A stretch of DNA of 36,643 nucleotides from an uncultured Eubacteriales bacterium (GTDB taxonomy: Bacteria > Bacillota > Clostridia > Christensenellales > Aristaeellaceae). Both the position numbers and the translations under genes were made by a program. The number at the start of each line of letters is the position of its first letter. Position 1 is the stretch's first letter. Shown one piece after another: positions 1,736 through 32,400 of this stretch. The stretch is from contig CADASI010000006.1 of NCBI GenBank assembly GCA_902790525.1, positions 1 to 36,643 on the forward strand, given 5' to 3'. The notes below the pieces were generated by a model, which made no database searches, was not told where the DNA came from, and saw only the letters and a program-made list of their open reading frames with translations.

Positions 1736-2428
1736 TTCTCCGAATATTGACGCTCGAATTATATTCCGAAGATTGCTTGCTTCTCCTGGCATCTTGCCAT
1801 ACATCCTTTCGGAGTCTTTCTGAATTTTGATCTTTCTGGTTATTTCCGCATATTTTCTATCCAGCCCAGCCGATAACCAATAATCCCAAATTTGAGCCAC
1901 AGAATCAACGCTGTCAATATCCTTCAAAAACCTTTCTTCACTGGAGTATTCGCCCGCTGCCTTGCGTTTCTGAATATCATCCATGCGCTGCTTGCGTTCT
2001 AATTCAAGCCTCTTATCTTCTACTTCCTTCTTCTCACGCGCTTCTTGCTCAATCCTTATTTGGTTTTCATAATCATCTTCCGACACAGCCTTGACGGCTG
2101 TACCGTACAGAGACAAATACATGATGTCGCCACCGAACGTATTATCAGAATCTATGGCGATAATTGCGTTTGCGCCTCTATTCTTTGCTTCTCGTATCAT
2201 CTTATCATAAGCGAATTCCCTTGCGTTTTCTATAAGCTCCATTGATCCTGACATTTCACGCGATCCCCATGAAAGTGTGTCTACTGCGTTTGATAATCCC
2301 GCCCCGAATCTTGATATGAAGCCATGCTTAAAGACGGTCTCTCCGAAAACGAGGCCGCATTGCGCAATAATCTTATACCCTTCGATTGACGATGCCGTGG
2401 TAAGTATCATATCGCCATATTGTTTCAT
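1733..2428 (-). CDS. UPF0145/YbjQ-type protein with C-terminal coiled coil
   Basis: The N-terminal 110 residues match the UPF0145 (YbjQ, 'heavy-metal-binding') fold: a short strand after TTASSIEGY, then a helix-rich part and the RGANAIIAID core followed by a glycine-rich strand. Residues 115-165 are highly charged and probably helical (E/K/R-rich), and the last 65 residues are not recognised. The family forms small pentamer-like oligomers; its biochemical role is unsettled. The gene begins 19 nt after the repressor stop with an AGAGGGA ribosome site, so it is probably co-transcribed with the repressor in the lysogen. That position is typical of a 'moron' expressed by a resident prophage. Any host-benefit function is inference. 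The codons are more AT-rich than those of the late genes, which suggests separate acquisition. Confidence 0.8.
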   Translation of the reverse strand: MKQYGDMILTTASSIEGYKIIAQCGLVFGETVFKHGFISRFGAGLSNAVDTLSWGSREMSGSMELIENAREFAYDKMIREAKNRGANAIIAIDSDNTFGGDIMYLSLYGTAVKAVSEDDYENQIRIEQEAREKKEVEDKRLELERKQRMDDIQKRKAAGEYSSEERFLKDIDSVDSVAQIWDYWLSAGLDRKYAEITRKIKIQKDSERMYGKMPGEASNLRNIIRASIFGE

Positions 2429-2447
2429 TGTAATTTCCCTCTACCTT

Positions 2448-2813
2448 CTATGCTTCTTCCACCATTTCAGGGAAGTTGAATTTTTTATATTTCCCGGTAG
2501 CATAAAGATCATCCACATACTGGATAACCTTCTCCTGCCCTTCGTCATTAAACTGGCGAAAAGCATCCATCAGGTGCCTTTCCAATGTTGATTGGGCTAT
2601 GTCTGTTGCGTCTGCCATTTCATCCTGAAACAGATAATTGGCATCACACTGGAGAACATCAAACACTCTATACAAAATGTCAGCTTTAGGAGAACTGATG
2701 CCGTTTTCATAATTGCCTATCGCAGAGCCGGTGATGCCCAGCATCCGCCCCAGCTCGCTTTGTTTCAGAGACAACGCCTCGCGGCGTTCTCGAAGCCTGC
2801 TTCCGAAGCTCAT
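2448..2813 (-). CDS. CI-like repressor (XRE family)
   Basis: A 121-residue protein with a canonical XRE helix-turn-helix (about residues 7-60; KQSELGRMLGITGSAIGNYE) and a short C-terminal part that could dimerise. No Ala-Gly peptidase site is seen, so it lacks the self-cleaving domain of lambda CI and needs another induction route. The start ATG at 2813 lies 8 nt after AAAGGA; the longer form (2849) has no such site. It heads the leftward lysogenic operon, is driven by the promoter at 2836-2863, and would bind the two CAAGTTTCTTG operators in the divergent control region. Confidence 0.9.
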   Translation of the reverse strand: MSFGSRLRERREALSLKQSELGRMLGITGSAIGNYENGISSPKADILYRVFDVLQCDANYLFQDEMADATDIAQSTLERHLMDAFRQFNDEGQEKVIQYVDDLYATGKYKKFNFPEMVEEA

Positions 2814-2835
2814 ACCATCATTCCTTTCATGTTTG

Positions 2836-2863
2836 ATTATACCATCCAATATTGAAAAGTCAA
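2836..2863 (-). promoter_or_regulatory. Repressor (leftward) promoter
   Basis: On the minus strand TTGACT (2863-2858), 16 bp, TATAAT (2841-2836). The start would be near 2829, giving a leader of only about 16 nt before the repressor ATG. Operator 1 lies 12 bp upstream of the -35, in a position suited to activation or mild autoregulation. Confidence 0.75.
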
Positions 2864-2874
2864 TAAAAAGTCAT

Positions 2875-2887
2875 CAAGTTTCTTGTA
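2875..2887. promoter_or_regulatory. Operator copy 1
   Basis: CAAGTTTCTTGTA, identical over 13 bp to the copy at 2936-2948. The core is a perfect CAAG/CTTG dyad with a TTT spacer. It lies between the two divergent promoters. Probable binding site of the repressor or the Cro-like protein (inference). Confidence 0.7.
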
Positions 2888-2895
2888 ATCTATTA

Positions 2896-2924
2896 TTGAC
2901 AGGCAAAGATTCCTGTACTATAAT
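2896..2924 (+). promoter_or_regulatory. Rightward early promoter (PR-like)
   Basis: A perfect TTGACA (2896-2901), 17-bp spacer, TATAAT (2919-2924) promoter. Transcription would start near 2931 and run into the Cro-like gene and the early operon. Operator 2 covers about +6 to +18, so a bound repressor would block initiation or promoter escape. Confidence 0.9.
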
Positions 2925-2935
2925 TCTACATACAC

Positions 2936-2948
2936 CAAGTTTCTTGTA
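2936..2948. promoter_or_regulatory. Operator copy 2
   Basis: The second identical 13-bp CAAGTTTCTTGTA, 61 bp from copy 1 (close to six helical turns). It overlaps the start region of the early promoter and the leader of the Cro-like gene. Cooperative looping between the copies is possible but inferred. Confidence 0.7.
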
Positions 2949-2964
2949 GTTTGGAGGTGGGCGT

Positions 2965-3195
2965 GTGACTGGAAGCGTTGCCGCAGGGATCGAACGGATC
3001 ATCCGGGACAAGGGTTTCGTGCAGGGCGCAATCGCAGCGAGGGCCGGTTTTTCCGATCAGCAGTTTTGCGACATGCTCAAAGGGCGGAAGATCATCCGGG
3101 CCGATTATCTGGTTCCTATTGCAAAGGCGTTGGGGGTTTCAGTCCAAGAAATCTATGACGCCGGAAAAGAATACCAGCCCCAGGAGGCGGTGTAA
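2965..3195 (+). CDS. Cro-like HTH regulator (XRE family)
   Basis: A 76-residue protein with a helix-turn-helix of the XRE type (about residues 20-62; AAIAARAGFSDQQFCDMLKG then a second helix). It is the first gene of the early operon, divergent from the repressor, which is the place of Cro in temperate phages. It starts at GTG 2965 with GGAGG 7 nt upstream. By family and position it would repress the leftward promoter and commit to lytic growth; that role is inferred. Confidence 0.85.
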   Translation: MTGSVAAGIERIIRDKGFVQGAIAARAGFSDQQFCDMLKGRKIIRADYLVPIAKALGVSVQEIYDAGKEYQPQEAV

Positions 3196-5316: not shown

Positions 5317-5337
5317 TGCTCCATGGCAGGGCTAACA

Positions 5338-5353
5338 GCCGGGTGAGACCGGC
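5338..5353 (+). repeat. Module 1 upstream hairpin
   Basis: GCCGG (5338-5342), six-nt loop, CCGGC (5349-5353), placed exactly 5 nt before the tRNA-like element. The same hairpin with the same 5-nt spacing recurs at 6123-6138 and 6869-6884. Confidence 0.8.
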
Positions 5354-5358
5354 GACAT

Positions 5359-5473
5359 GGGAATGTAGCGCAGCCCGGAAGCGCGGTTGGGACGAAGGAC
5401 GGGCCGGGCCTTGATCTCGCTCACGGCACCACCACCCAGCAGGCCGCCGGTTCAAATCCGGCCATTCCCGCCA
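5359..5473 (+). tRNA. tRNA-like element 1, with enlarged anticodon loop
   Basis: The fold has a perfect 7-bp acceptor stem (5359-5365 with 5463-5469), discriminator G5470 and encoded CCA (5471-5473). TA follows the acceptor at positions 8-9, and a D arm GCGC/GCGC (5368-5371, 5381-5384) has GG in the loop. The T arm is GCCGG-TTCAAAT-CCGGC (5446-5462), with a 5-nt variable loop. The anticodon stem GTTGG/CCAGC (5386-5390 with 5436-5440, one G-U) encloses 45 nt where 7 are expected. No anticodon can be assigned. It may be a tRNA with an insertion or tiny intron, or a non-decoding tRNA mimic. No group I intron core fits in 38 extra bases. Confidence 0.65.
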
Positions 5474-5475
5474 AA

Positions 5476-5487
5476 GCCCATAAGGGC
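5476..5487 (+). repeat. Module 1 downstream hairpin
   Basis: GCCC-ATAA-GGGC two nt after the CCA, followed by an AGGAGG ribosome site and the ATG of the DUF6273 gene. The stretch from the CCA to the ATG is almost the same as that at 6217-6261. Confidence 0.65.
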
Positions 5488-5511
5488 AATACATCATAGG
5501 AGGCTAACACC

Positions 5512-6093
5512 ATGAAATACTATTCGACCATTGAGCTCCCGGACAAGAAAGAGGGCTTCGCTATAGGCGACGTCATATCCTTTGACCTGAATGACGGAGA
5601 ACACTTTGAAGCCATGGCCATGCAGCCGGAGGATGGCGGAATGATCTTCTGCGCCGTGGATTGCCTCGCGGAGGAATACCCCATGATGCGGGAATCCGGC
5701 AAGCAGGGCGACTATAAAACATCCGATCTGCGCGAAATCCTGAATACCACCATCCTGCGGCGATTCCCGAAAGAATTGGTCAGGCAGATGGTTCCTTTCG
5801 CTGACGGCGATCTGTTGCGCATACCCACGGAGAAGGAGATTTTCGGCACGAACGAATACGGCGAGGACGAGTCTGATGACGTAACACAATGGAAGCCCAT
5901 GAAACTACGGCGCAACCGCGTAGCTTTTCAGGGCCACAACGGCGCATGGGAATGGTATTGGCTACAAAACAGGTTGCGGGATGTTGCGTCCGCGACGTAC
6001 TTTGCCGTTGTGAACAGCTACGGCATTGCGTACTACGGCTACGCCTCCTACTCTCTTGGCGTTCGCCCGGCTTTCAAGATCAAGAATCTTTAA
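5512..6093 (+). CDS. DUF6273-domain protein
   Basis: A 193-residue protein. Residues about 1-125 form a beta-rich part with a helix, and the C-terminal 70 residues carry the DUF6273 signature: WEWYWLQNRLRD, then FAVVNSYG, then SLGVRPAFKI. This resembles C-type-lectin-like folds used as ligand-binding or variable proteins. The last 35 residues are rich in Tyr, Ser, Gly, Asn and Ala encoded by NNC codons, as in targets of diversity-generating retroelements, but no reverse transcriptase or template repeat is in the window. It is an odd cargo for an early operon. It lies between tRNA modules 1 and 2, with a strong AGGAGG 11 nt upstream of the ATG. Function unknown. Confidence 0.8.
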   Translation: MKYYSTIELPDKKEGFAIGDVISFDLNDGEHFEAMAMQPEDGGMIFCAVDCLAEEYPMMRESGKQGDYKTSDLREILNTTILRRFPKELVRQMVPFADGDLLRIPTEKEIFGTNEYGEDESDDVTQWKPMKLRRNRVAFQGHNGAWEWYWLQNRLRDVASATYFAVVNSYGIAYYGYASYSLGVRPAFKIKNL

Positions 6094-6095
6094 TC

Positions 6096-6114
6096 TCGCC
6101 CCCTTGTGGGGCGA
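6096..6114 (+). repeat. 7-bp hairpin after the DUF6273 gene
   Basis: TCGCCCC (6096-6102) pairs with GGGGCGA (6108-6114), loop CTTGT. No T-run follows, so it is not a clear terminator. It lies directly before module 2. Confidence 0.5.
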
Positions 6115-6122
6115 TTGAGACA

Positions 6123-6138
6123 GCCGGGAAAGACCGGC
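6123..6138 (+). repeat. Module 2 upstream hairpin
   Basis: GCCGG-GAAAGA-CCGGC, 5 nt before the tRNA, the same as at 6869-6884 and nearly the same as at 5338-5353. Confidence 0.8.
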
Positions 6139-6143
6139 ATCAC

Positions 6144-6219
6144 GGGAAGGTAGCTCAGATGGCAAGAGAGCGGGTTGATAAGCCCGAGAACGCTGGTTCG
6201 AGTCCAGCCCTTCCCACCA
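6144..6219 (+). tRNA. tRNA-Ile (GAU)-like
   Basis: A 76-nt cloverleaf. The acceptor GGGAAGG/CCTTCCC is perfect (6144-6150 with 6209-6215), with discriminator A and encoded CCA (6217-6219). TA is at 8-9. The D arm GCTC/GAG has A14, G18G19 and A21. The variable loop is AGAAC, and the T arm is GCTGG-TTCGAGT-CCAGC (6192-6208). The anticodon arm reads CGGGT (6171-6175), TGATAA, GCCCG (6182-6186); aligned to bacterial tRNA-Ile it gives U33, anticodon GAU (6177-6179), A37, A38, with position 32 missing or a G-U closing pair in an 8-nt loop. Whether it is charged and decodes is open. It lies in the early operon, not in a tRNA cluster. Confidence 0.8.
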
Positions 6220-6221
6220 AA

Positions 6222-6234
6222 GCCCATAATGGGC
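6222..6234 (+). repeat. Module 2 downstream hairpin
   Basis: GCCCA-TAA-TGGGC, two nt after the CCA, followed by AGGAGG and the ATG at 6259. Near-copy of 5476-5487 and its flank. Confidence 0.65.
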
Positions 6235-6258
6235 AATACAACATAGGAGGCTGACACC

Positions 6259-6560
6259 ATGAGCAACTATCGCATCCACATCGAACCTCTCAACGACGAA
6301 GTGCAACTCCCCGAAGAATTGCGGGGGGGGTCTGCATTGATGGCTTTAGCCTGATCTACGGTGATGGAGAGAAAACATCTACCGTAGCCATCCAGCACAT
6401 GACAACGCTGGATGTCGCAAAAGCCGTCGCATCCTGCCCGACGATGCGCGCTGCCGCCCGACTCGCCGAAGGTTTGAGGGAAGCTATGGAGATCGAGCGC
6501 AAGGGCAGCATGGACGGACTGCTGGAGAAGCTGCGCCAGGCAGTAGAGCAGAAAGGATAA
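6259..6560 (+). pseudogene. Small early gene interrupted at a G8 tract
   Basis: The ATG at 6259 follows a strong AGGAGG. The frame reads MSNYRIHIEPLNDEVQLPEE and then enters eight G (6323-6330). In frame 0 it stops soon after (TGA near 6352). In the -1 frame from the same tract it continues through SLIYGDGEKTSTVAIQHM to a helical C-terminus ending at TAA 6558-6560, giving a coherent protein of about 100 residues. Nine or six G would restore the frame. The cause may be a homopolymer sequencing error, phase variation, -1 slippage during expression, or decay. The C-terminal half (ASCPTMRAAARLAEGLREAM) is a regular amphipathic helix. Function unknown. Confidence 0.7.
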
Positions 6561-6568
6561 GTGATACT

Positions 6569-6856
6569 ATGACACAAGAGAGACATCCGCTGGCCGGTCA
6601 GACCGTCCGGCTGAAAGAAGGAATCGGGAAATTCTTGCAAGGAGACGCTGGTGGCGCTGAATTTGTCGTTGAGGATTGGGCGGATAACGTGATGGGACGC
6701 TCTATTTGGTCGCTCAACGGCAATCCTGCCGCACTGGAATACGCTGTGCGCATAGGCGCGAACGGTAACGGTGTACCCATCGACGATAAAGCCGTGTATG
6801 GCAAGGTCGGCGGATTCGGCCACATCGTACACGACAGCGAGATCATCAGGGAATAA
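6569..6856 (+). CDS. Conserved hypothetical phage protein
   Basis: A 95-residue protein beginning MTQERHPLAGQTVRLKEG, with segments VEDWADNVMGRSIW, NGNPAALEYAVR and a C-terminal VYGKVGGFGHIVHDSEI. This combination is seen in small early proteins of many Firmicutes phages, but no function is known to me. It is basic to neutral and beta-rich with one central helix. It starts 8 nt after the frameshifted gene ends. Confidence 0.75.
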   Translation: MTQERHPLAGQTVRLKEGIGKFLQGDAGGAEFVVEDWADNVMGRSIWSLNGNPAALEYAVRIGANGNGVPIDDKAVYGKVGGFGHIVHDSEIIRE

Positions 6857-6868
6857 AGCCCTGTGGCA

Positions 6869-6884
6869 GCCGGGAAAGACCGGC
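6869..6884 (+). repeat. Module 3 upstream hairpin
   Basis: GCCGG-GAAAGA-CCGGC, 5 nt before the third tRNA-like element. Third copy of the module hairpin. Confidence 0.8.
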
Positions 6885-6889
6885 ATCCT

Positions 6890-6957
6890 GCGAGAGATTG
6901 GTATTGCCTGGGTCCGCCCATGCCCCGGCAGTAGGTTCAAATCCTGCCTCTCGCCTC
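6890..6957 (+). tRNA. tRNA-like element 3, collapsed D arm, no CCA
   Basis: The 7-bp acceptor stem GCGAGAG/CTCTCGC is perfect (6890-6896 with 6948-6954). The T arm is GTAGG-TTCAAAT-CCTGC (6931-6947) with the normal T-loop, and there is a 5-nt variable loop. The D region has only 11 nt (6899-6909), enough for a 2-bp GG/CC arm. The anticodon-like stem GGGT/GCCC (6910-6913 with 6922-6925) has an 8-nt loop; the same GGGT/GCCC pairing occurs in element 2. The 3' end reads CTCA, so CCA is not encoded. It is either a decayed tRNA or a tRNA mimic. The third match of the 5-nt hairpin spacing favours a conserved module. Confidence 0.55.
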
Positions 6958-6962
6958 AATGC

Positions 6963-6978
6963 GCCCGCGAAATCGGGC
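6963..6978 (+). repeat. Module 3 downstream hairpin
   Basis: GCCCG-CGAAAT-CGGGC shortly after the third tRNA-like element, before the ribosome site and ATG at 7006. Different in sequence from the module 1 and 2 downstream hairpins but in the same place. Confidence 0.6.
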
Positions 6979-25355: not shown

Positions 25356-26864
25356 ATGTCTGACATCTACAAGCATGGCGCATACGGCCAGATTCAGGCC
25401 GTCGGCAGCCGCGTACCGAACGCGAGCCGCAGCGCCATTGTCTACATCGGCACGGCCCCGGTTCACACGCTGGCGCTGGGCACCGGCGAGAGCTACAACG
25501 TGAACAAGCCCGTGGTCGTGAACAACATCTCCGAGGCGCGGCAGCTTTTCGGCTACTCGGACGATTGGGCCAGCTATACGCTGTGCGAGGCGATGAAGGT
25601 CCATATGGAAAGCAAGGGCGTCGGCCCGCTGGTGCTGATTAACGTCCTTGACCCCACCAACACCAACCATAAAAACACCACCGCTGTTTCCAATGACATG
25701 ACCCCGGACAACGGGCGCATCGTCATTTCCAGCGCGGAGAGCATCATCCTGGAATCCGTAGTCATCCAGACCAAGGATGAGACCCCCGTGACGAAGGTCA
25801 AGGGCACGGATTACACCATCGCGTACAACATCGACAAGAAGCAGATCGTGATTACCGAGATCGGCACCGGCCTGGGCACCTCCGCGCTGGCCGTAACGTA
25901 TTACACGATCAAACCCTCCGGCGTAACCAACAGCGACGTGATCGGTTCGTCCGACGGCCTGGGTCTCAACACCGGCACGTTCGCGGTAAAGAATGTGTAC
26001 CAGATGACCGGCTACATCCCGTCCTTCCTGGGCGCTCCCGGCTTCTCCTCCGTTCCCGCCATCCATACCGCGATGTACCAGAACAGCCAGAAGATCAACG
26101 ATCATTGGGATGCCTATATGTTCGTCGATCTGCCGCTAACCAACAGCGGTACGGTCCTGACGCTGGACAGCGCGGTGACGTACAAGAACGCCAACGGCTA
26201 CACCAAGCAGAACGAGACCGTGTACTTCCCCATGGCGAAGGGCACCGACGGCGCGTATTACCACCTGTCCGTGCTGGCCGCTGCGAACTTCCAGGAGTTG
26301 CTGCTCGCGCAGGACGGCGTGCCTTTCAAGACCGCCAGCAACACGGATTGCTCGATCATCGAGAATCTGTACACCAGCGCGAGCGACACCGGGCGCGTCT
26401 ACGATGACGCAATCATCAACGCGAAGCTGAACAAGAACGGCATTGCCAGCGCGGCCTATGTCGGCGGGCGGTGGGCCATCTGGGGCGCATCCAGCGCTGA
26501 CTACAACCAGACCGACGGCGACAGCATTAACGTCGCCGAGACCAACCGCATGATGCTGTTCTACATCAGCAATGATTTCCAGCATCGCCGCACGCGGGAC
26601 GTTGACAAGCCCATGACGTCGAACGACCTGCAAACCATCGTCGCAGAGGAGCAGGCCCGGCTTGACGCGCTGCGCAAGATGGGCGCTTTGCTGTACGGCA
26701 ACGTGTTCCTGGATGCCAGCGCAAAGGCCAAGAGCGACATCATGAACGGTGACTATGCTTTCACCTTCAATGTCACGACCACGCCGCTTGCCAAGAGCCT
26801 GACGGCCATTGTCAACTGGACGGACACCGGATTTGCGACCTACTTCGAGAGCCTGGGCGATTAA
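25356..26864 (+). CDS. Tail sheath protein
   Basis: A 502-residue contractile sheath protein. It has the N-terminal KHGAYGQIQAVGSRVPNASR, a central inserted beta domain and a conserved C-terminal end (MTSNDLQTIVAEEQARLDAL, then NVTTTPLAKSLTAIVNWTDT). The sheath surrounds the tube and contracts to drive it through the envelope, so the phage is a myovirus. A strong AGGAGG precedes the ATG. Confidence 0.93.
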   Translation: MSDIYKHGAYGQIQAVGSRVPNASRSAIVYIGTAPVHTLALGTGESYNVNKPVVVNNISEARQLFGYSDDWASYTLCEAMKVHMESKGVGPLVLINVLDPTNTNHKNTTAVSNDMTPDNGRIVISSAESIILESVVIQTKDETPVTKVKGTDYTIAYNIDKKQIVITEIGTGLGTSALAVTYYTIKPSGVTNSDVIGSSDGLGLNTGTFAVKNVYQMTGYIPSFLGAPGFSSVPAIHTAMYQNSQKINDHWDAYMFVDLPLTNSGTVLTLDSAVTYKNANGYTKQNETVYFPMAKGTDGAYYHLSVLAAANFQELLLAQDGVPFKTASNTDCSIIENLYTSASDTGRVYDDAIINAKLNKNGIASAAYVGGRWAIWGASSADYNQTDGDSINVAETNRMMLFYISNDFQHRRTRDVDKPMTSNDLQTIVAEEQARLDALRKMGALLYGNVFLDASAKAKSDIMNGDYAFTFNVTTTPLAKSLTAIVNWTDTGFATYFESLGD

Positions 26865-26880
26865 GGGGAGGTGAAGAACA

Positions 26881-27411
26881 ATGCCGCAGAGAGTTTACAA
26901 CAATGTTGAAGGCCATCGGCTGCTCGATACCGTGGCCGGTACGCAGCGCGTGGTTGAGGACGTTACCAAGGTCGGCCTGCCGACTTTGAAGCACCCCACG
27001 ACAGAGCTGAAGAACATCGCGGGTATGGCGATGGACGTGAACATGCCCACCGACACCCACCTGGAAGCCGCCGACTATACGATCTACCACAACAACGGCG
27101 TCAACGGGCGCTACCTGTCCACGCCCGGCAAGCACTTCGACGAGTTCCGTACCGTCCGCCAGCGTTACAACAACGCGACTGGCGAGATCGAGCATGAGAG
27201 CGTGAAATACCGCCTCACGGGCACGCACGTCGAGACGCAGAAAGGCGACATCGAAACCGGCTCCCCGTATGGCAGCACGGATAAGTATTCCCTGCTCCGT
27301 TACGAGGAGGAGGTTGACGGCGAGGTTGTGACCATCGTTGACGCGATGGCAGGCATCCTCAAGTGGAACGGCGTCGAGTTTACCGATGTCGTTGAGAGTA
27401 TGCTGAACTAA
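26881..27411 (+). CDS. Major tail tube protein
   Basis: A 176-residue protein of the P2 FII type: an N-terminal strand (VYNNVEGHRLLDTVAG), then VGLPTLKHPTTELKNIAGMA and a C-terminal EVVTIVDAMAGILKWNGVEF. It forms the inner tube through which DNA leaves. It lies directly after the sheath gene as in P2. A structured 131-nt gap follows. Confidence 0.9.
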   Translation: MPQRVYNNVEGHRLLDTVAGTQRVVEDVTKVGLPTLKHPTTELKNIAGMAMDVNMPTDTHLEAADYTIYHNNGVNGRYLSTPGKHFDEFRTVRQRYNNATGEIEHESVKYRLTGTHVETQKGDIETGSPYGSTDKYSLLRYEEEVDGEVVTIVDAMAGILKWNGVEFTDVVESMLN

Positions 27412-27422
27412 GCACCGCCCTG

Positions 27423-27518
27423 GGGAAATGCGCGAACGAAGCCGCGCACGCTCTGATGAAATGCGCGAACGCTCGCGCATTTGAACGATTGCAGACGCGG
27501 CGGCAACGCGCATTTCCC
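27423..27518 (+). repeat. Nested inverted repeats between tube and chaperone genes
   Basis: GGGAAATGCGCG (27423-27434) pairs with CGCGCATTTCCC (27507-27518), 12 bp perfect. Inside is a 10-bp perfect hairpin AAATGCGCGA-ACGC-TCGCGCATTT (27459-27482), whose left arm can also pair in place of the outer left arm, because AAATGCGCGAACG occurs twice (27426-27438 and 27459-27471). Two folds are thus possible. No T-run follows, so it is an RNA-processing or attenuation element rather than a simple terminator (inference). Confidence 0.7.
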
Positions 27519-27543
27519 ATATTTCCCATGAAAGGACAATACC

Positions 27544-28035
27544 ATGAGCGAAGAAATCATTAAGGCGGAAGCCGCAGATAAGCCGGAAAGCACCGGCGCA
27601 GAGAATGAGTATACCCCGGAACAGACAGCAGAACTCGTGAGGAAATCGCTGGAAGAAATACGCGCAAAGAGCAAGGAATCCCTGGAAGCCATGCGCGAGG
27701 GCAAGGGCCGGTTGAAGCTGGAGAAGCCCATCACCGCAGGCGACAAAGAGATCACCGAACTGGCGTATGACTTCAATGACCTTACGGGCGTTGAGTACAC
27801 CATGGCGATGGACAGCGACATGAACGCCAGGGAAACCTTCAAGATCACCTACCGGCAGAGCCTCGCGCTTTTCGCGGCAGCCGCCGCAAAGCACACCGAG
27901 GCGCTGGATTCGCGGGACATCATTGAAAAGATCGGCATGACTGACGCCGTGGAGGGCGTACAACTGGCAACGTCTTTTTTCGTTGCATCGACGCGAGCGG
28001 GCCGTTTGCGTATCTCGAAATGGTCATCCAAGTAG
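27544..28035 (+). CDS. Tail assembly chaperone, short form (P2 gpE-like)
   Basis: A 163-residue helical protein, acidic at the N-terminus (MSEEIIKAEAADKPESTGAE), with a core LKLEKPITAGDKEITELAYD and RETFKITYRQSLALFAAAAA. It sits between the tube and hub/tape-measure genes, the place of P2 E and lambda G. These chaperones coat the tape measure while the tube assembles. The gene holds a -1 slippery site at 27975-27981 that extends it into a second product. Confidence 0.88.
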   Translation: MSEEIIKAEAADKPESTGAENEYTPEQTAELVRKSLEEIRAKSKESLEAMREGKGRLKLEKPITAGDKEITELAYDFNDLTGVEYTMAMDSDMNARETFKITYRQSLALFAAAAAKHTEALDSRDIIEKIGMTDAVEGVQLATSFFVASTRAGRLRISKWSSK

Positions 28036-28145
28036 GCATGGTTACGCACACGTCGATCAAAGACTTCATGGAAATGCCTATCAAACAATTCTTGTACATA
28101 GCGGCAACGCTCGGAAGGGTGTTGGAAAAGCGGAGAGGCGGATAA
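27544..28145 (+). CDS. Tail assembly chaperone, -1 frameshift fusion (E+E' type)
   Basis: A -1 shift at T TTT TTC (codons TTT TTC of the short form) continues in a clean frame that reads RCIDASGPFAYLEMVIQVG, then SIKDFMEMPIKQFLYIAATL, and stops at TAA 28143-28145, giving about 200 residues. The extension has no good start of its own and ends 31 nt before the next gene. P2 E/E' and lambda G/GT use the same device to make a small share of the long form. The heptamer is seen; the frequency is unknown. Confidence 0.85.
27975..27981 (+). other. Programmed -1 frameshift heptamer
   Basis: T TTT TTC in the correct phase (X XXY YYZ) near the end of the short chaperone frame. Slippage puts the ribosome at CGT in the -1 frame. 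Confidence 0.85.
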
Positions 28146-28176
28146 CGCTTCTCCGCTTTTACGAGGAGGCGGCAGC

Positions 28177-29094
28177 GTGGAGATCACATACCAGGGCTAT
28201 GACATCACGGAATGGGCGCAAGCGCTTAAATGCGTGTGCCGCGACACGGCAGGGAATCGCTGCGACAGCCTGGACATCGAATTTGAAAACGCGGCAGGAT
28301 GGTACAACCTGGAACCCAAGGAGGACGATCAGATCATCGTTTCACATAACGGCTATGATACGGGCGTTATGTATGTGAACACGATATTGCCGGAGGACGG
28401 ACGATTCCGCATACTGGCCTCCTCTCTCCCCTGCGCCGCACGCGCAAAGGGCTATCAGAGCTTCACAGGAAAGACCATCGAGGAAATCATGCGCTCGTGC
28501 GCCATGAGCAGCGGCATGGACTTTCAGATTTTCGGCATTGACGGCAGCCTTGTGATCCCTTACATCCAGCGGGAAAACGAGAGCTGCGCCGCTTTTCTCT
28601 ACCGGCTGCTGCGATTGGAGGGCGCTGTCCTCAAATGCGTCAATGGGTTTTATACAGCCATCGGCATTGAATACGCGCAGGCGCGTGAAGCCCACCAGAC
28701 AATGGAGGTCACGGCGAATCAGACCAGCATGGAGTACAGGCGAAGCGGACAGACATACAGGATTGTGACCGTTGAAACGCCTTACGCCAGGGCGACAGCG
28801 CAGGACACAAACGTGCCAACAAATCACGCCAGCATCACAATCAGCGACGTACCGGCGCGGAACGACATCCTGGCCGGACGCTGGGCGAGAGGGCTGTTGC
28901 TTGACGAGAATCGGAAGTGCGAAACACTTATCGTGCCATCCACCTTCAATGTAGGCTATACGGCCATGACGCGGATCGACGTCGAGGGAAGCTCTGACGC
29001 TGTCGGCGAATGGCTGATCCAGGAAGCGGAGCATGATTTTATCGAATTGAAATCCACGGCGACGATGCACAGGTGCGTCGCGTCGATCCAATAA
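28177..29094 (+). CDS. Baseplate hub, late control gene D-like
   Basis: A 305-residue protein like P2 gpD and related hubs: N-terminal beta domain (MEITYQGYDITEWA, then CDSLDIEFENAAGWYNL), KTIEEIMRSCAMSSGMDF, and QRENESCAAFLYRLLRLEGA, a marker of this family. It links the tube to the central spike. GTG 28177 has GAGGAGG 7 nt upstream. In P2, D follows the tape measure; here it precedes it. Confidence 0.82.
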   Translation: MEITYQGYDITEWAQALKCVCRDTAGNRCDSLDIEFENAAGWYNLEPKEDDQIIVSHNGYDTGVMYVNTILPEDGRFRILASSLPCAARAKGYQSFTGKTIEEIMRSCAMSSGMDFQIFGIDGSLVIPYIQRENESCAAFLYRLLRLEGAVLKCVNGFYTAIGIEYAQAREAHQTMEVTANQTSMEYRRSGQTYRIVTVETPYARATAQDTNVPTNHASITISDVPARNDILAGRWARGLLLDENRKCETLIVPSTFNVGYTAMTRIDVEGSSDAVGEWLIQEAEHDFIELKSTATMHRCVASIQ

Positions 29095-29107
29095 AGGGGG
29101 CTGCCTT

Positions 29108-29296
29108 ATGGGCAATATCGAAAGAGGCAAGGTCAAGGAAATATCTGATTCCGGGTATGTGGTCGAATCCCTTGACCGAAAAGGCATTGTTTCCCCGCCC
29201 ATTGAACCCATCACGGAAACTACATACGCGCAGAACGACATGGTGCTGTTTGTGCTGTTCAGCGACGGCACGGGCAAGATCATTTCCGGCGCATGA
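29108..29296 (+). CDS. Small beta protein, possible OB-type spike or hub accessory
   Basis: A 62-residue protein (GNIERGKVKEISDSGYVVES, then YAQNDMVLFVLFSDGTGKII) with the strand pattern of a small OB or beta-barrel unit. It follows the hub gene where a spike (gpV-like) gene is expected but is far shorter than V. A minimal spike base is possible; unproven. Confidence 0.65.
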   Translation: MGNIERGKVKEISDSGYVVESLDRKGIVSPPIEPITETTYAQNDMVLFVLFSDGTGKIISGA

Positions 29297-29306
29297 GGAA
29301 AAGGCC

Positions 29307-29426
29307 ATGCTTAGAAAACTGAAAATACGAATCAGAAAAGCGATTGATTATATCGTGCCCCGGCTCTATTTCACGGCGAACGGCACGATCATCATGTGGA
29401 TCGGACGGGAGTTTTACTTCTCCTGA
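29307..29426 (+). CDS. 39-residue basic hypothetical protein
   Basis: ATG 29307 with a GGAAAAGG site upstream, TGA at 29424-29426. The peptide starts MLRKLKIRIRKAIDYIVPRL and ends with an aromatic strand (TIIMWIGREFYF). The basic amphipathic start could touch membrane or nucleic acid. It fills the gap before the tape measure gene and fits the operon; no family known. Confidence 0.55.
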   Translation: MLRKLKIRIRKAIDYIVPRLYFTANGTIIMWIGREFYFS

Positions 29427-29454
29427 TTGACAACTGCGAAAGGATGGTGAGACC

Positions 29455-32400
29455 GTGGCGCAGACGCTTGAAACCATAATCGCCATAAACGCGACAGTAG
29501 GCAACGGGTTTAGCGAGATCGGCAGTACGCTGACCCAGCTCGGGGCACAGATCGACGGTATCAGCGAAAAGCTGATCGGATTCGGCAAAGACAGCCTGAA
29601 AACCTACGAGGATTACGAAAAAAACATGGCCGAGGCCAGGGGCGCCCTCGCCACGAAGTACGGCAGAGACACCCAGGAATTGGATAACGTCATGAAGCAG
29701 CTTGACACCCAGGCGCGAGCGTGGGCGTCAAGCACCATCTTCCATACGGATGACGTGGGCAACGCAATCACAGAAGCGGCACGCGCCGGATGGGACTTGG
29801 AAAAGATATTGACGGGCATCCCGGCAGCCATGGAACTGGCACAGGCGGGAAGTATTGACCTCTCCGACGCGGTTTATTACATAACTGAGGCAGCAAAGGC
29901 CGGACAGATCGAATTTGGCGACCTCACTGAGTTTATTGATATGTGGTCTTACGCGGCCAACAACAGCAACGGCACCATTGAGAGTTTCGGAGATACCATG
30001 CTGCGCCTTGGAAGCGTGATGAACTTCGCCGGGAGCCGCGAAGAACTGCTCGCCTTGATCGCCGTCATGCACGAGACCGGCACCGAGGGCAGCACGGCGG
30101 CCACGCTGCTGCGCACGGCCATGATGAACATACTGGCCCCCTCCGGCACCGCGGGAAAAGTGCTTGAACAGCTTGGCGCAACCGAGGAAGAAATCGAATC
30201 GGTACGCCAGGACGCGAGCAAGCTACAGGCGCTCAATATCCTTGGCGAGCACGGATTCTCCGCTTTCGATGAAAACGGGCAAGCCAAAAACATTCTGAAT
30301 ATCTTTCATGATCTGCGGGAAGCTCTCGCGGACATCGCCGGTGGATATGATCTGATCGACAAAAACGAGACCTCGCTCGGCGTGCTGGGAACGATCTTCG
30401 GCAAGAGAGGCATCACCGGCGCACTTAACATCATGAATATGCTGGAATACGCCACGGGCCTTGAAAAAGACCTGATTGGCGGCGCTGCCGAGGGCTACGG
30501 CAGTTACCTTTCCGGCACGATGATGGACACGCTTTACGGGCGCATTGAGACCTGGGAGAGCAAGGTTGAAAATCTCAAGCTGCGCACCGGCGATACGCTG
30601 GCAGAACAATTAAAACCTGTTCTCGAAGCGGCTGGCGGGATCGCGGACAGCCTTGCCACTCTTGACACCGGCACATTCAACGCGCTTGTGTCCGGTCTGG
30701 AAGTCATCGCGGCGGCAGGCCCTGGGCTGATGCTGGCTGGCGGCGCTTTCCGTCTGATCGGCTATGCTCTGACGCCTGCGGGCGGACTTGGCCTTGGATT
30801 AGTCGCCCTGACCGCAGCGGCAGCGGCGATCAACGAACTGGAAAAGGCGGACTTCGCGGATAAATTCGGCAACCTGGAATTGGATTCTTCTCAAATCCAA
30901 TCCTACGTTACGACACTTAGCAGCGAGTTCAAGGAAGCGTATACCAACGTAGACGAGTTCAAGCGTGCGCTAAGTGAGGCTGTGGAGCAGTATACCACGA
31001 CCAGCAGCGCCTTTAAGAGCAATATCATCACCGACATGCTGACCGGCGTCGAGATCAAGGAAGGGACGCCGGAATACGAGAAGTTGGTCGGCATGGGAGA
31101 GGACATTATCGCTGCCGTGCGATCCGGCATCGAAAACAACTACACGGGCACGATGGAGGGCGTGACACAGAGCTTCGGCGGCGATCTGGAGAGCATCGAC
31201 AATCCAATATGGGCGCAGATCATCAGCATATTGGAACAGGGCTACGAAACAGACCTTGCCAGGGCGGAGGAACTGGGGCGGCAGCTTCGCAACGCCATGA
31301 CGGCTGCCTTTTCCGACGGTCATCTGACCGCAGAAGAGGTTTCCAACATCCAATCCATCATCGACGAGCAGAACGCCCTTCTCGCCCAACAGCAGGACAG
31401 GGAACACTTCCTTGAACGCCAGCGCATATTGCGCAAGGCGCAGACGCTTGGCCTTGAAGCGATCCGCGAGGCATCGGAACAGGTGGAGGCTGAGCGGGAT
31501 GCGGAATGGGAGGCGCTGCAAGACCGCCAGGCGGGCGACTACTACGATACCGCCGCATGGTATGACAAGGCCATAGAAAACGGCTGGATGGTGCCCAATA
31601 CGGACGGAACCGAGGGAGAACACGCCGCCACGCAAGCCGATAAAACAGCCGCTCTCGCTGAACTCTCTCAGCGCCAGGAGGATGAACGCTATCGCTGGGG
31701 CGCAAATTTCAGCGATTACCTGATGGGCGTCTGGACGGAAGGTATCACGTCCAGCGAATTGAGCGGAACGTGGGACGCGCTGCAACAACTCGGAAAGGAT
31801 TTCCGGGAAGCGGGCGGCATCATCACACAGGACGCCGCCAATCGTTATGCAGAGGGCATGGGCACGCCGAGGGAATCCCTACAAGCACAGCAATACCTTC
31901 AGGAGATGGTTGCGGCGCTCGGTGGCTATGACGTTTTGCAAGGCTATGCAGACTATTTCATGTCCCAGGGCAATACCGAAATGGCCCAACGCTATCAAAA
32001 CATCATGGACATATACGACGCGATGGGCCGCGTCACCCATGTCGAAGCGCAAACAGGCACCCAGGGGCAGGGCGACTATTCCGAAGTAACAGGTACTTAT
32101 GAACAGATTGCGGCGCTGCTGCGCGGTGCATACGGTTCCGAAACGAGTATGACGCCGGAAGTCCTGGCAGATTACATGGCGGAACAGCGCGGCATGGGCA
32201 TGGAACCTGACTGGAAAACCTACATGGGCGACGAACTGTGGAGCCAATTCAATTCCATCGCTCAGGCCACTGGATCAACCATATCAGATATTGTCGCAGC
32301 AGCCGTGTCCACTCCATCATCTCCCGTTTCGCTCTCTCCATACACAGGTGAAGGCGACGCCGCTCAATCCCTGCGGGATCAGGGCGTCCAGGTCCAGGTC

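Follow-up and report, generated by a model that had tools for sequence, protein, structure and literature searches.

A two-hairpin RNA element and adjoining tRNA-like folds between early prophage genes: putative antitermination and RNase P processing signals

Three gaps, here termed modules 1–3, sit among the early genes of a prophage in the window (the whole stretch of DNA that was analysed, namely the first 36,643 bases of contig C6 of genome G000), which carries a serine recombinase at its left end. Each gap appears to pair two signals carried by the RNA of an early phage operon: a two-hairpin element in the untranslated leader RNA, which may work in the manner of put, as an antiterminator that acts on RNA polymerase during transcription, and, usually 4–6 nucleotides (nt) later, a tRNA-like fold that would serve as a cut site for RNases P and Z. 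The element is RNA, not DNA, and the stem of its second hairpin covaries; the acceptor and T arms of the folds are likewise under selection as RNA. The combined functional reading, drawn from sequence comparison, is the one that we favour, tentatively and at slightly less than even confidence.

A covarying element and its tRNA-like neighbours

As claimed in a preliminary description of this DNA, all three gaps share one layout of hairpin, linker, tRNA-like fold, small hairpin, AGGAGG and ATG (Table 1), the linker between hairpin and fold being exactly 5 nt in each. The near-identity then claimed for the flanks of modules 1 and 2 also stands, with 3′ flanks 88% identical over 40 nt. The pattern GCCGGNNNNGACCGGCNNC occurs five times in the whole genome, three times as the window modules, and its reversed control not at all, so that the module hairpins exceed chance; together with weaker matches, the copies in the genome amount to three on C6, two on contig C4 and one weak partial match on contig C39.

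The element consists of a variable hairpin (P1), a U, the letters GACA, a 5-base-pair (bp) hairpin (P2) with a GARAGA-type loop, and an A. In an open-stem scan that did not require pairing (TGACANDNNNGAAAGANNNHNACC; at least 100 distinct sites among the matches listed), P2 pairing is two-peaked, with all five pairs at 25 of 100 sites, four at 3 and three or fewer at 72. Fully paired stems other than GCCGG (24 sites, 18 distinct) include 11 with G-U and none with A-C among the matches listed; as A-C would be G-U on the other strand, the element is read as RNA from this one. The inner G-C pair is kept in 24 of 24 variant stems, and alignment A1 has a covariation score of 0.744, against 0.155 when shuffled, its 36 sequences having been selected for full pairing and hence being biased. 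Some of the apparent invariance of the element was likewise imposed by the search patterns themselves. Among letters free of any pattern, the G and A before CA are kept at 94% and 89% and the T preceding them at 80% of 133 sites; the T before GACA is kept at 78% of 120 genome sites, and the two free places of the loop read AA or AG in 123 of 131 matches to the loop pattern. Loops of 7 nt exist, in the second copy in phage mEp390 (17 bits) and, by eye, in L403 (loci compared with the window are labelled L plus a number). Model R1, whose alignment includes the letters of module 2 and not those of modules 1 and 3, was used to score the window copies (Table 1).

The stems also bear on the suggestion, made in the preliminary description, that the modules are a mobile or duplicating DNA unit bringing in cargo genes, which we regard as extremely unlikely. 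The similar 3′ flanks of modules 1 and 2 do enclose an extra gene, the DUF6273 gene, that the corresponding stretch of the related locus L014 lacks; the tRNA-like bodies differ, however, L014 has elements in the gaps corresponding to modules 2 and 3, and the presence of G-U, never A-C, in the stems argues for RNA, no search aimed at transposases or end sequences around the modules having been made.

No further conserved helix or loop pairing was found beyond the two hairpins. Pairing of the P2 loop with the flank gave no sign, and a stop-codon or recoding element was rejected, the frame of the TGA being no more open upstream than the other two. We consider it very unlikely that the element is a new self-cleaving ribozyme whose GACA linker, GARAGA-type loop and 3′ A form a catalytic core cutting near the tRNA 5′ end: two hairpins only were found, and the invariance that would mark such a core was set in part by the search patterns. 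Conserved unpaired letters, the lack of a tied gene family, several copies per phage and neighbouring tRNAs and mobile elements do resemble what one report presents for theta ribozymes (PMC10879173). These small hepatitis delta virus (HDV)-like phage RNAs also adjoin tRNAs, but sit at the tRNA 3′ end according to the same report (PMC10879173), whereas the element lies 5′ of the tRNA. Rfam gave no HDV-family match in the module region, which does not qualify as a theta ribozyme.

The three folds downstream all have 7 of 7 acceptor pairs and 5 of 5 T-arm pairs. Screening for tRNAs with Infernal-type models, as the preliminary description had proposed, places modules 2 and 1 above the RF00005 threshold of 29 bits and gives no match for module 3; ARAGORN calls a tRNA in module 2 only. 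In the Rfam alignment, module 1 has 45 nt where the anticodon loop would be, and because its folding energy is no better than that of shuffled sequences (z-score +0.4), its support is the Rfam match together with a compensatory change in its orthologue. The 5-bp anticodon stem and 7-nt loop of a decoding tRNA are found neither in module 1, with its insert, nor in module 3, whose central arm is long and which lacks a D arm; for module 2 the alignment gives an anticodon loop of 8 nt, whereas folding gives one of 4 nt. Loops of 8 nt in the module 2 fold and its L139 orthologue, for which ARAGORN gives four-letter anticodons, resemble those of frameshift-suppressor tRNAs. Features of an RNase P substrate are present as an acceptor/T-arm stack in 3 of 3 modules, T, C and T at position −1 and the 3′ ends GCCA, ACCA and CTCA (modules 1–3), so that U−1 and a 3′ CCA each occur in two of three.

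Linkage between element and fold extends well beyond the window. A tRNA-like fold lies 3′ of the element at 18 of 153 sites (module 2 among them) and at 22 of 128 others, or 40/281, compared with 10 of 3,060 shuffled downstream sequences and 34 of 3,834 displaced stretches; 36 of 200 sites retain one after removal of similar sites, and in these 200 the strongest pairing signal outside the element is a tRNA acceptor that begins 5 nt after P2. Across 42 folds (the 40 linked ones plus window modules 1 and 3), which are 59–140 nt long, the linker ranges from 2 to 12 nt and is exactly 5 in 18, the three window modules included, and 4–6 nt in 30; one of the 42 is L139, where the script took a wrong acceptor and the actual fold starts some 33 nt beyond P2. 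A T at −1 is found in 27 of the 42, and 3′ NCCA is encoded in 18 (ACCA 9, GCCA 6, TCCA 2, CCCA 1).

Seven orthologue pairs, picked out by eye, were used to follow conservation (modules 1 and 3 of the window, each with L403; module 2 with L139; L014–L073, L024–L307, L126–L354, and L014 with contig C4 of G000). Of their 84 acceptor and T-stem pairs, 72 are unchanged, 8 show double compensatory changes, 3 single changes that keep pairing and 1 is broken. The D-less shape of module 3 recurs in L403 and the insert of module 1 in its orthologue, and many linked folds either lack the anticodon arm or have an enlarged one. The acceptor and T arm are thus under selection as RNA, whereas the anticodon arm can be dispensed with. 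For bacterial RNase P the acceptor stem and T arm are the main requirement; a fold that keeps these while its anticodon arm is lost or enlarged therefore fits a processing signal rather than a decoding tRNA.

The same observations weaken the alternative that the folds are real or decoy tRNAs, which translate or feed host tRNA-cutting defences, with the hairpin as a tRNA leader. Module 2 has a full tRNA fold, and ordinary calls are made for some linked folds (Lys TTT in L306, Ser GCT in L354, Pro TGG in L344), ARAGORN accepting 18 of the 42; the other 24 are not accepted, the module 1 insert and the missing D arm of module 3 are shared with their orthologues, and the loop of the element lies just upstream of only 22 of the 171 ARAGORN tRNAs of the loci. 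We judge this explanation quite unlikely; on decoys as such, one of the roles suggested in the preliminary description, the evidence is neutral. By eye, the enlarged central part of the folds in L298, L316 and L140 contains a Shine-Dalgarno-like sequence and a short reading frame. Also by eye, several tRNA-like sequences that are unannotated in the record of phage DIBBI (L150, 1640–2385; Ser-, Asn- and Asp-like) lie between its primase and terminase genes, one of them directly 3′ of the element.

Distribution and genomic surroundings

A search of viral contigs with CAGCCGGGNNAGACCGGCNNC returned at least 120 stretches and a one-per-species genome search with GACAGCCGGGARAGACCGGCA at least 118. 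By record titles, the genome matches listed span Proteobacteria, Bacteroidales, Clostridia, Anaerolinea, Spirochaetes, Planctomycetes, Blastocatellia, Patescibacteria and Omnitrophota, many records being metagenome assemblies in which single taxon assignments may be wrong. Annotated phages contributed 90 records with at least a partial match (E up to 10), some of the weaker ones lying inside genes and probably due to chance; in mEp390, Medea1 and BUCT708 the element stands ahead of the early genes, on the repressor side. Near the host of the window it is rare, being present in 3 of 28 genomes of the genus (R1, E 0.05), and the exact pattern was found at class level in 1 of 391 genomes, namely the window's own; the element therefore looks accessory and phage-borne. 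The short pattern GCCGGGNNAGACCGGC was set aside as unspecific, with matches in 13 of 100 related genomes against 5 for its reversed control, several of them without the GACA linker.

That no named system has this layout, as stated in the preliminary description, agrees with Rfam 15: in the window and 48 other loci, no family reached its threshold over the element. Sub-threshold matches to the sRNAs isrJ, MicX and BSnc120 that cover the element in L079 are driven by the terminator that follows, and an identity with Mu-gpT-DE was considered and dropped on comparison with Rfam. No description of the element was found in the open PubMed Central literature, supplements lying outside this search, and four forms of the core string are absent from open PubMed Central paper texts, a body from which most subscription papers are missing.

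A noncoding stretch surrounds the element. The nearest downstream gene is codirectional in 130 cases and opposed in 47, the nearest upstream gene in 96 and 76, respectively. A Shine-Dalgarno sequence and start within 100 nt show a modest rise (68 of 200 versus 271 of 1,203), and the downstream side is more folded (mean z −0.94 versus −0.32). For 87 of 155 candidate downstream proteins, 152 PHROG families were matched, several per protein and the commonest in five; no gene family is tied to the element. By a simple rule, intrinsic terminators follow within 300 nt at 20 of 144 sites (background 45 of 2,474), some of the 20 being related; 12 of 200 non-similar sites remain once the tRNA-like ones are set aside.

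HEARO RNA (omega RNA, RF02033) precedes the element in 8 of 16 loci chosen for a common downstream end sequence, at 31, 31, 31, 43, 43, 50, 51 and 95 nt, and a rough HEARO-like signature lies 5′ of 6 of 280 sites; an Rfam scan of the window gave no HEARO match. In L019, L294, L303, L309, L346, L382, L384 and L391, HEARO is followed by the element and then by a right end that by eye resembles the IS605 type. In L019 and L294 there is no room between them for a nuclease gene.

Proposed antitermination and mRNA cutting, and the alternatives

In the explanation that we favour, the likeliest role of the two-hairpin element is to aid the passage of RNA polymerase across untranslated phage RNA, in the manner of HK022 put. 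This analogy is drawn because of the leader position, the downstream terminators, the untranslated cargo, the lack of a linked gene and the spread across phyla. The HK022 put RNA is about 70 nt long with bulged stems (PMC9378689). It shares with the element two hairpins, a place in phage early-operon leaders and no partner protein in evidence, and differs from the 5-bp P2, near-fixed hexaloop and occurrence in many phyla of the window-type element. The boxB hairpin of lambda nut is another early-leader signal, with 5 bp and a GNRA-like purine loop; the element resembles it in the 5-bp hairpin and purine loop and departs from it in its hexaloop, its upstream P1 and the sameness of its core across phyla.

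The tRNA-like fold, for its part often pared down to what RNase P needs (acceptor stem and T arm, commonly with U−1 and CCA), probably lets host enzymes cut the phage mRNA between genes, RNase P cutting being a natural consequence of such a fold. Cleavage at the 5′ end of the fold would fall to host RNase P, and trimming of its 3′ end to RNase Z or other nucleases; the upstream piece of the transcript would then end in the P2 hairpin and the downstream gene would gain a new 5′ end. Cutting of the early mRNA through tRNA processing was put forward in the preliminary description and is the best-supported part of it, given the selection on acceptor and T arm and the dispensable anticodon arm, cleavage itself being what we infer. 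In mascRNA of MALAT1 and in mitochondrial tRNA punctuation, a tRNA-like fold in a longer RNA is an RNase P cut site. Both resemble the modules in this respect and in having structure just upstream of the new 3′ end; here, in contrast, the RNA is a repeated feature of phage mRNA, and in most places the element has no tRNA beside it. We give no weight to a low-scoring mascRNA match in L403 (26.8 bits against a threshold of 42.5).

Several observations weigh against this combined explanation. Neither a tRNA-like fold nor a terminator lies near 152 of the 200 sites, and P1 is not universal by a stem-end test, the scoring stem ending at −6 in 57% of 135 sites compared with 24% when shuffled. Upstream promoter enrichment is not clear (25/160 versus 18/160), and upstream folding barely exceeds the control (mean z −0.56 and −0.36 versus −0.32), which also led us to reject structured RNA as a general upstream partner. 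Put-type antitermination sites act over kilobases, which does not explain copies every 200–750 nt, and antitermination offers no reason for the short linker. Element-to-fold spacing is not fixed in relatives (2–12 nt), and the leader of the module 2 orthologue in L139 is about 33 nt. The 3′ hairpin, present at 8 of 41 sites against 11% of shuffled sequences, was rejected as a general part and is a local feature. Finally, HK022 positions 26000–31500 contain nothing like the element core at up to 6 changes, putL and putR not having been located there. The single hairpin–tRNA–hairpin unit envisaged in the preliminary description is not supported, as no fold was found after the element at 241 of 281 sites, the spacing varies and the 3′ hairpin is local; of the outcomes that it named as telling against it, variable spacing in homologues was partly observed, and lack of covariation was not.

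An alternative that does account for the short linker, better than antitermination does, is that the two hairpins shield a 3′ end made downstream by RNase P or a terminator, with no effect on RNA polymerase. Structure before mascRNA protects the 3′ end of MALAT1 RNA in this way, makers of 3′ ends (tRNA-like folds and terminators) are enriched directly downstream of the element, and the eight HEARO loci place an RNA a short distance upstream. Against it, upstream genes are barely codirectional and downstream ones clearly so, which fits operon starts better than ends, and folding in the 120 nt before the element is scarcely above that of the control. We regard a shield as unlikely, though less so than the tRNA, ribozyme and mobile-unit explanations.

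Relatives of the prophage, a retroelement target and wider meaning

Homologous small genes are found in L014, L073, L403 and L354, together with as many as five elements within 1.5 kilobases and several consecutive tRNA-like folds. Flanking genes of the window and L014 are 77% and 51% identical (two genes, other homologies being by eye), the former value applying to gene 6569–6856; a back-translated search for relatives of this gene found none in viral contigs, yet missed the L014 homologue and is hence incomplete. The small gene after module 2 (about 6260–6560) has its frame broken at a G run relative to its L014 homologue, and a similar run occurs in L354. Untranslated stretches are also alike between phages (L014/L073, 90% over 136 nt and 79% over 123 nt; L403/L354, 85% over 88 nt). 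Stretches between tRNA-like folds (L403 3920–4140, L354 2120–2240, L014 4830–4960, L073 7060–7200) matched no Rfam family and may represent additional noncoding RNAs of phages.

The DUF6273 gene between modules 1 and 2 was previously proposed to be cargo; cargo it is, but of another kind, namely the target of a diversity-generating retroelement, as judged from sequence. A template lies on contig C135 of the same genome (L408, 1733–1836) beside a reverse transcriptase (2023–3180; PF00078, 46.8 bits), together with a second DUF6273 variable gene (36–1004) and another frame between the two genes. The assignment follows from the differences from the template falling at template A: 13 of 14 for the window variable region, the remaining one being at the 3′ edge, and 11 of 12 for the C135 variable gene. 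C135 also has an endolysin-like gene and may continue this prophage. The GC-rich hairpin upstream of module 2 has a similar counterpart after the C135 variable gene (L408, about 1010–1035, by eye); the hairpin after both variable genes is perhaps a retroelement target-site hairpin, doubling as the module 2 upstream hairpin.

Table 1. Positions of module parts and of the DUF6273 gene in the window (R1, model of the element; z, folding z-score).
Feature	Position	Strand	Evidence or remarks
Module 1 P1 hairpin (weak)	5318..5332	+	Fold; directly 5′ of U-AACA
Module 1 element, UAACA-GCCGG-GUGAGA-CCGGC-GAC	5333..5356	+	R1 20.4 bits, E 8e-4
Module 1 GCCGG/CCGGC hairpin	5338..5353		
Module 1 tRNA-like fold, insert replacing anticodon arm, 3′ end GCCA	5359..5473	+	RF00005 46.8 bits; one compensatory T-stem change versus L403
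Module 1 3′ hairpin	5476..5487	+	Fold z −2.8
Module 1 AGGAGG; ATG	5498; 5512		
DUF6273 gene, between modules 1 and 2	5512..6093	+	PF19789 30 bits; variable region about 5972–6075
Module 2 upstream hairpin, GC-rich	6096..6114 (within 6094–6116)	+	Fold
Module 2 element, AGACA-GCCGG-GAAAGA-CCGGC-AUC	6118..6141	+	R1 36.8 bits, E 1e-8 (own sequence inside model)
Module 2 GCCGG/CCGGC hairpin	6123..6138		
Module 2 tRNA-like fold, apparent 8-nt anticodon loop, 3′ end ACCA	6144..6219	+	RF00005 53.3 bits; ARAGORN; fold z −2.9
Module 2 3′ hairpin	6222..6234	+	Fold z −3.1
Module 2 AGGAGG; ATG	6245; 6260		
Module 3 P1 hairpin, overlaps stop codon of gene 6569–6856	6847..6863	+	z −3.3 with element
Module 3 element, UGGCA-GCCGG-GAAAGA-CCGGC-AUC	6864..6887	+	R1 31.4 bits, E 5e-7
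Module 3 GCCGG/CCGGC hairpin	6869..6884		
Module 3 tRNA-like fold without D arm	6890..6958	+	7/7 acceptor and 5/5 T-arm pairs; L403 orthologue with two compensatory changes; z −3.1; no Rfam match
Module 3 3′ hairpin	6963..6978	+	Fold z −1.5
Module 3 AGGAGG; ATG	6989; 7006		

Taken more broadly, the element could be an undescribed RNA family of phages and HEARO elements across bacterial phyla, a pan-bacterial put that by itself acts on RNA polymerase, a machine common to all hosts, and that some phages have joined to tRNA-like RNase P sites so as to cut their operons between genes; we consider this possible but doubtful. A covarying element found again and again next to unrelated genes, in phages of many phyla and without an Rfam match where tested, must act generally on the host. 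Should it prove to be an antiterminator, antitermination by RNA alone would cease to be a rare trait confined to a few lambdoid phages, and through the tRNA-like folds phage gene expression would gain tRNA punctuation of mRNA.

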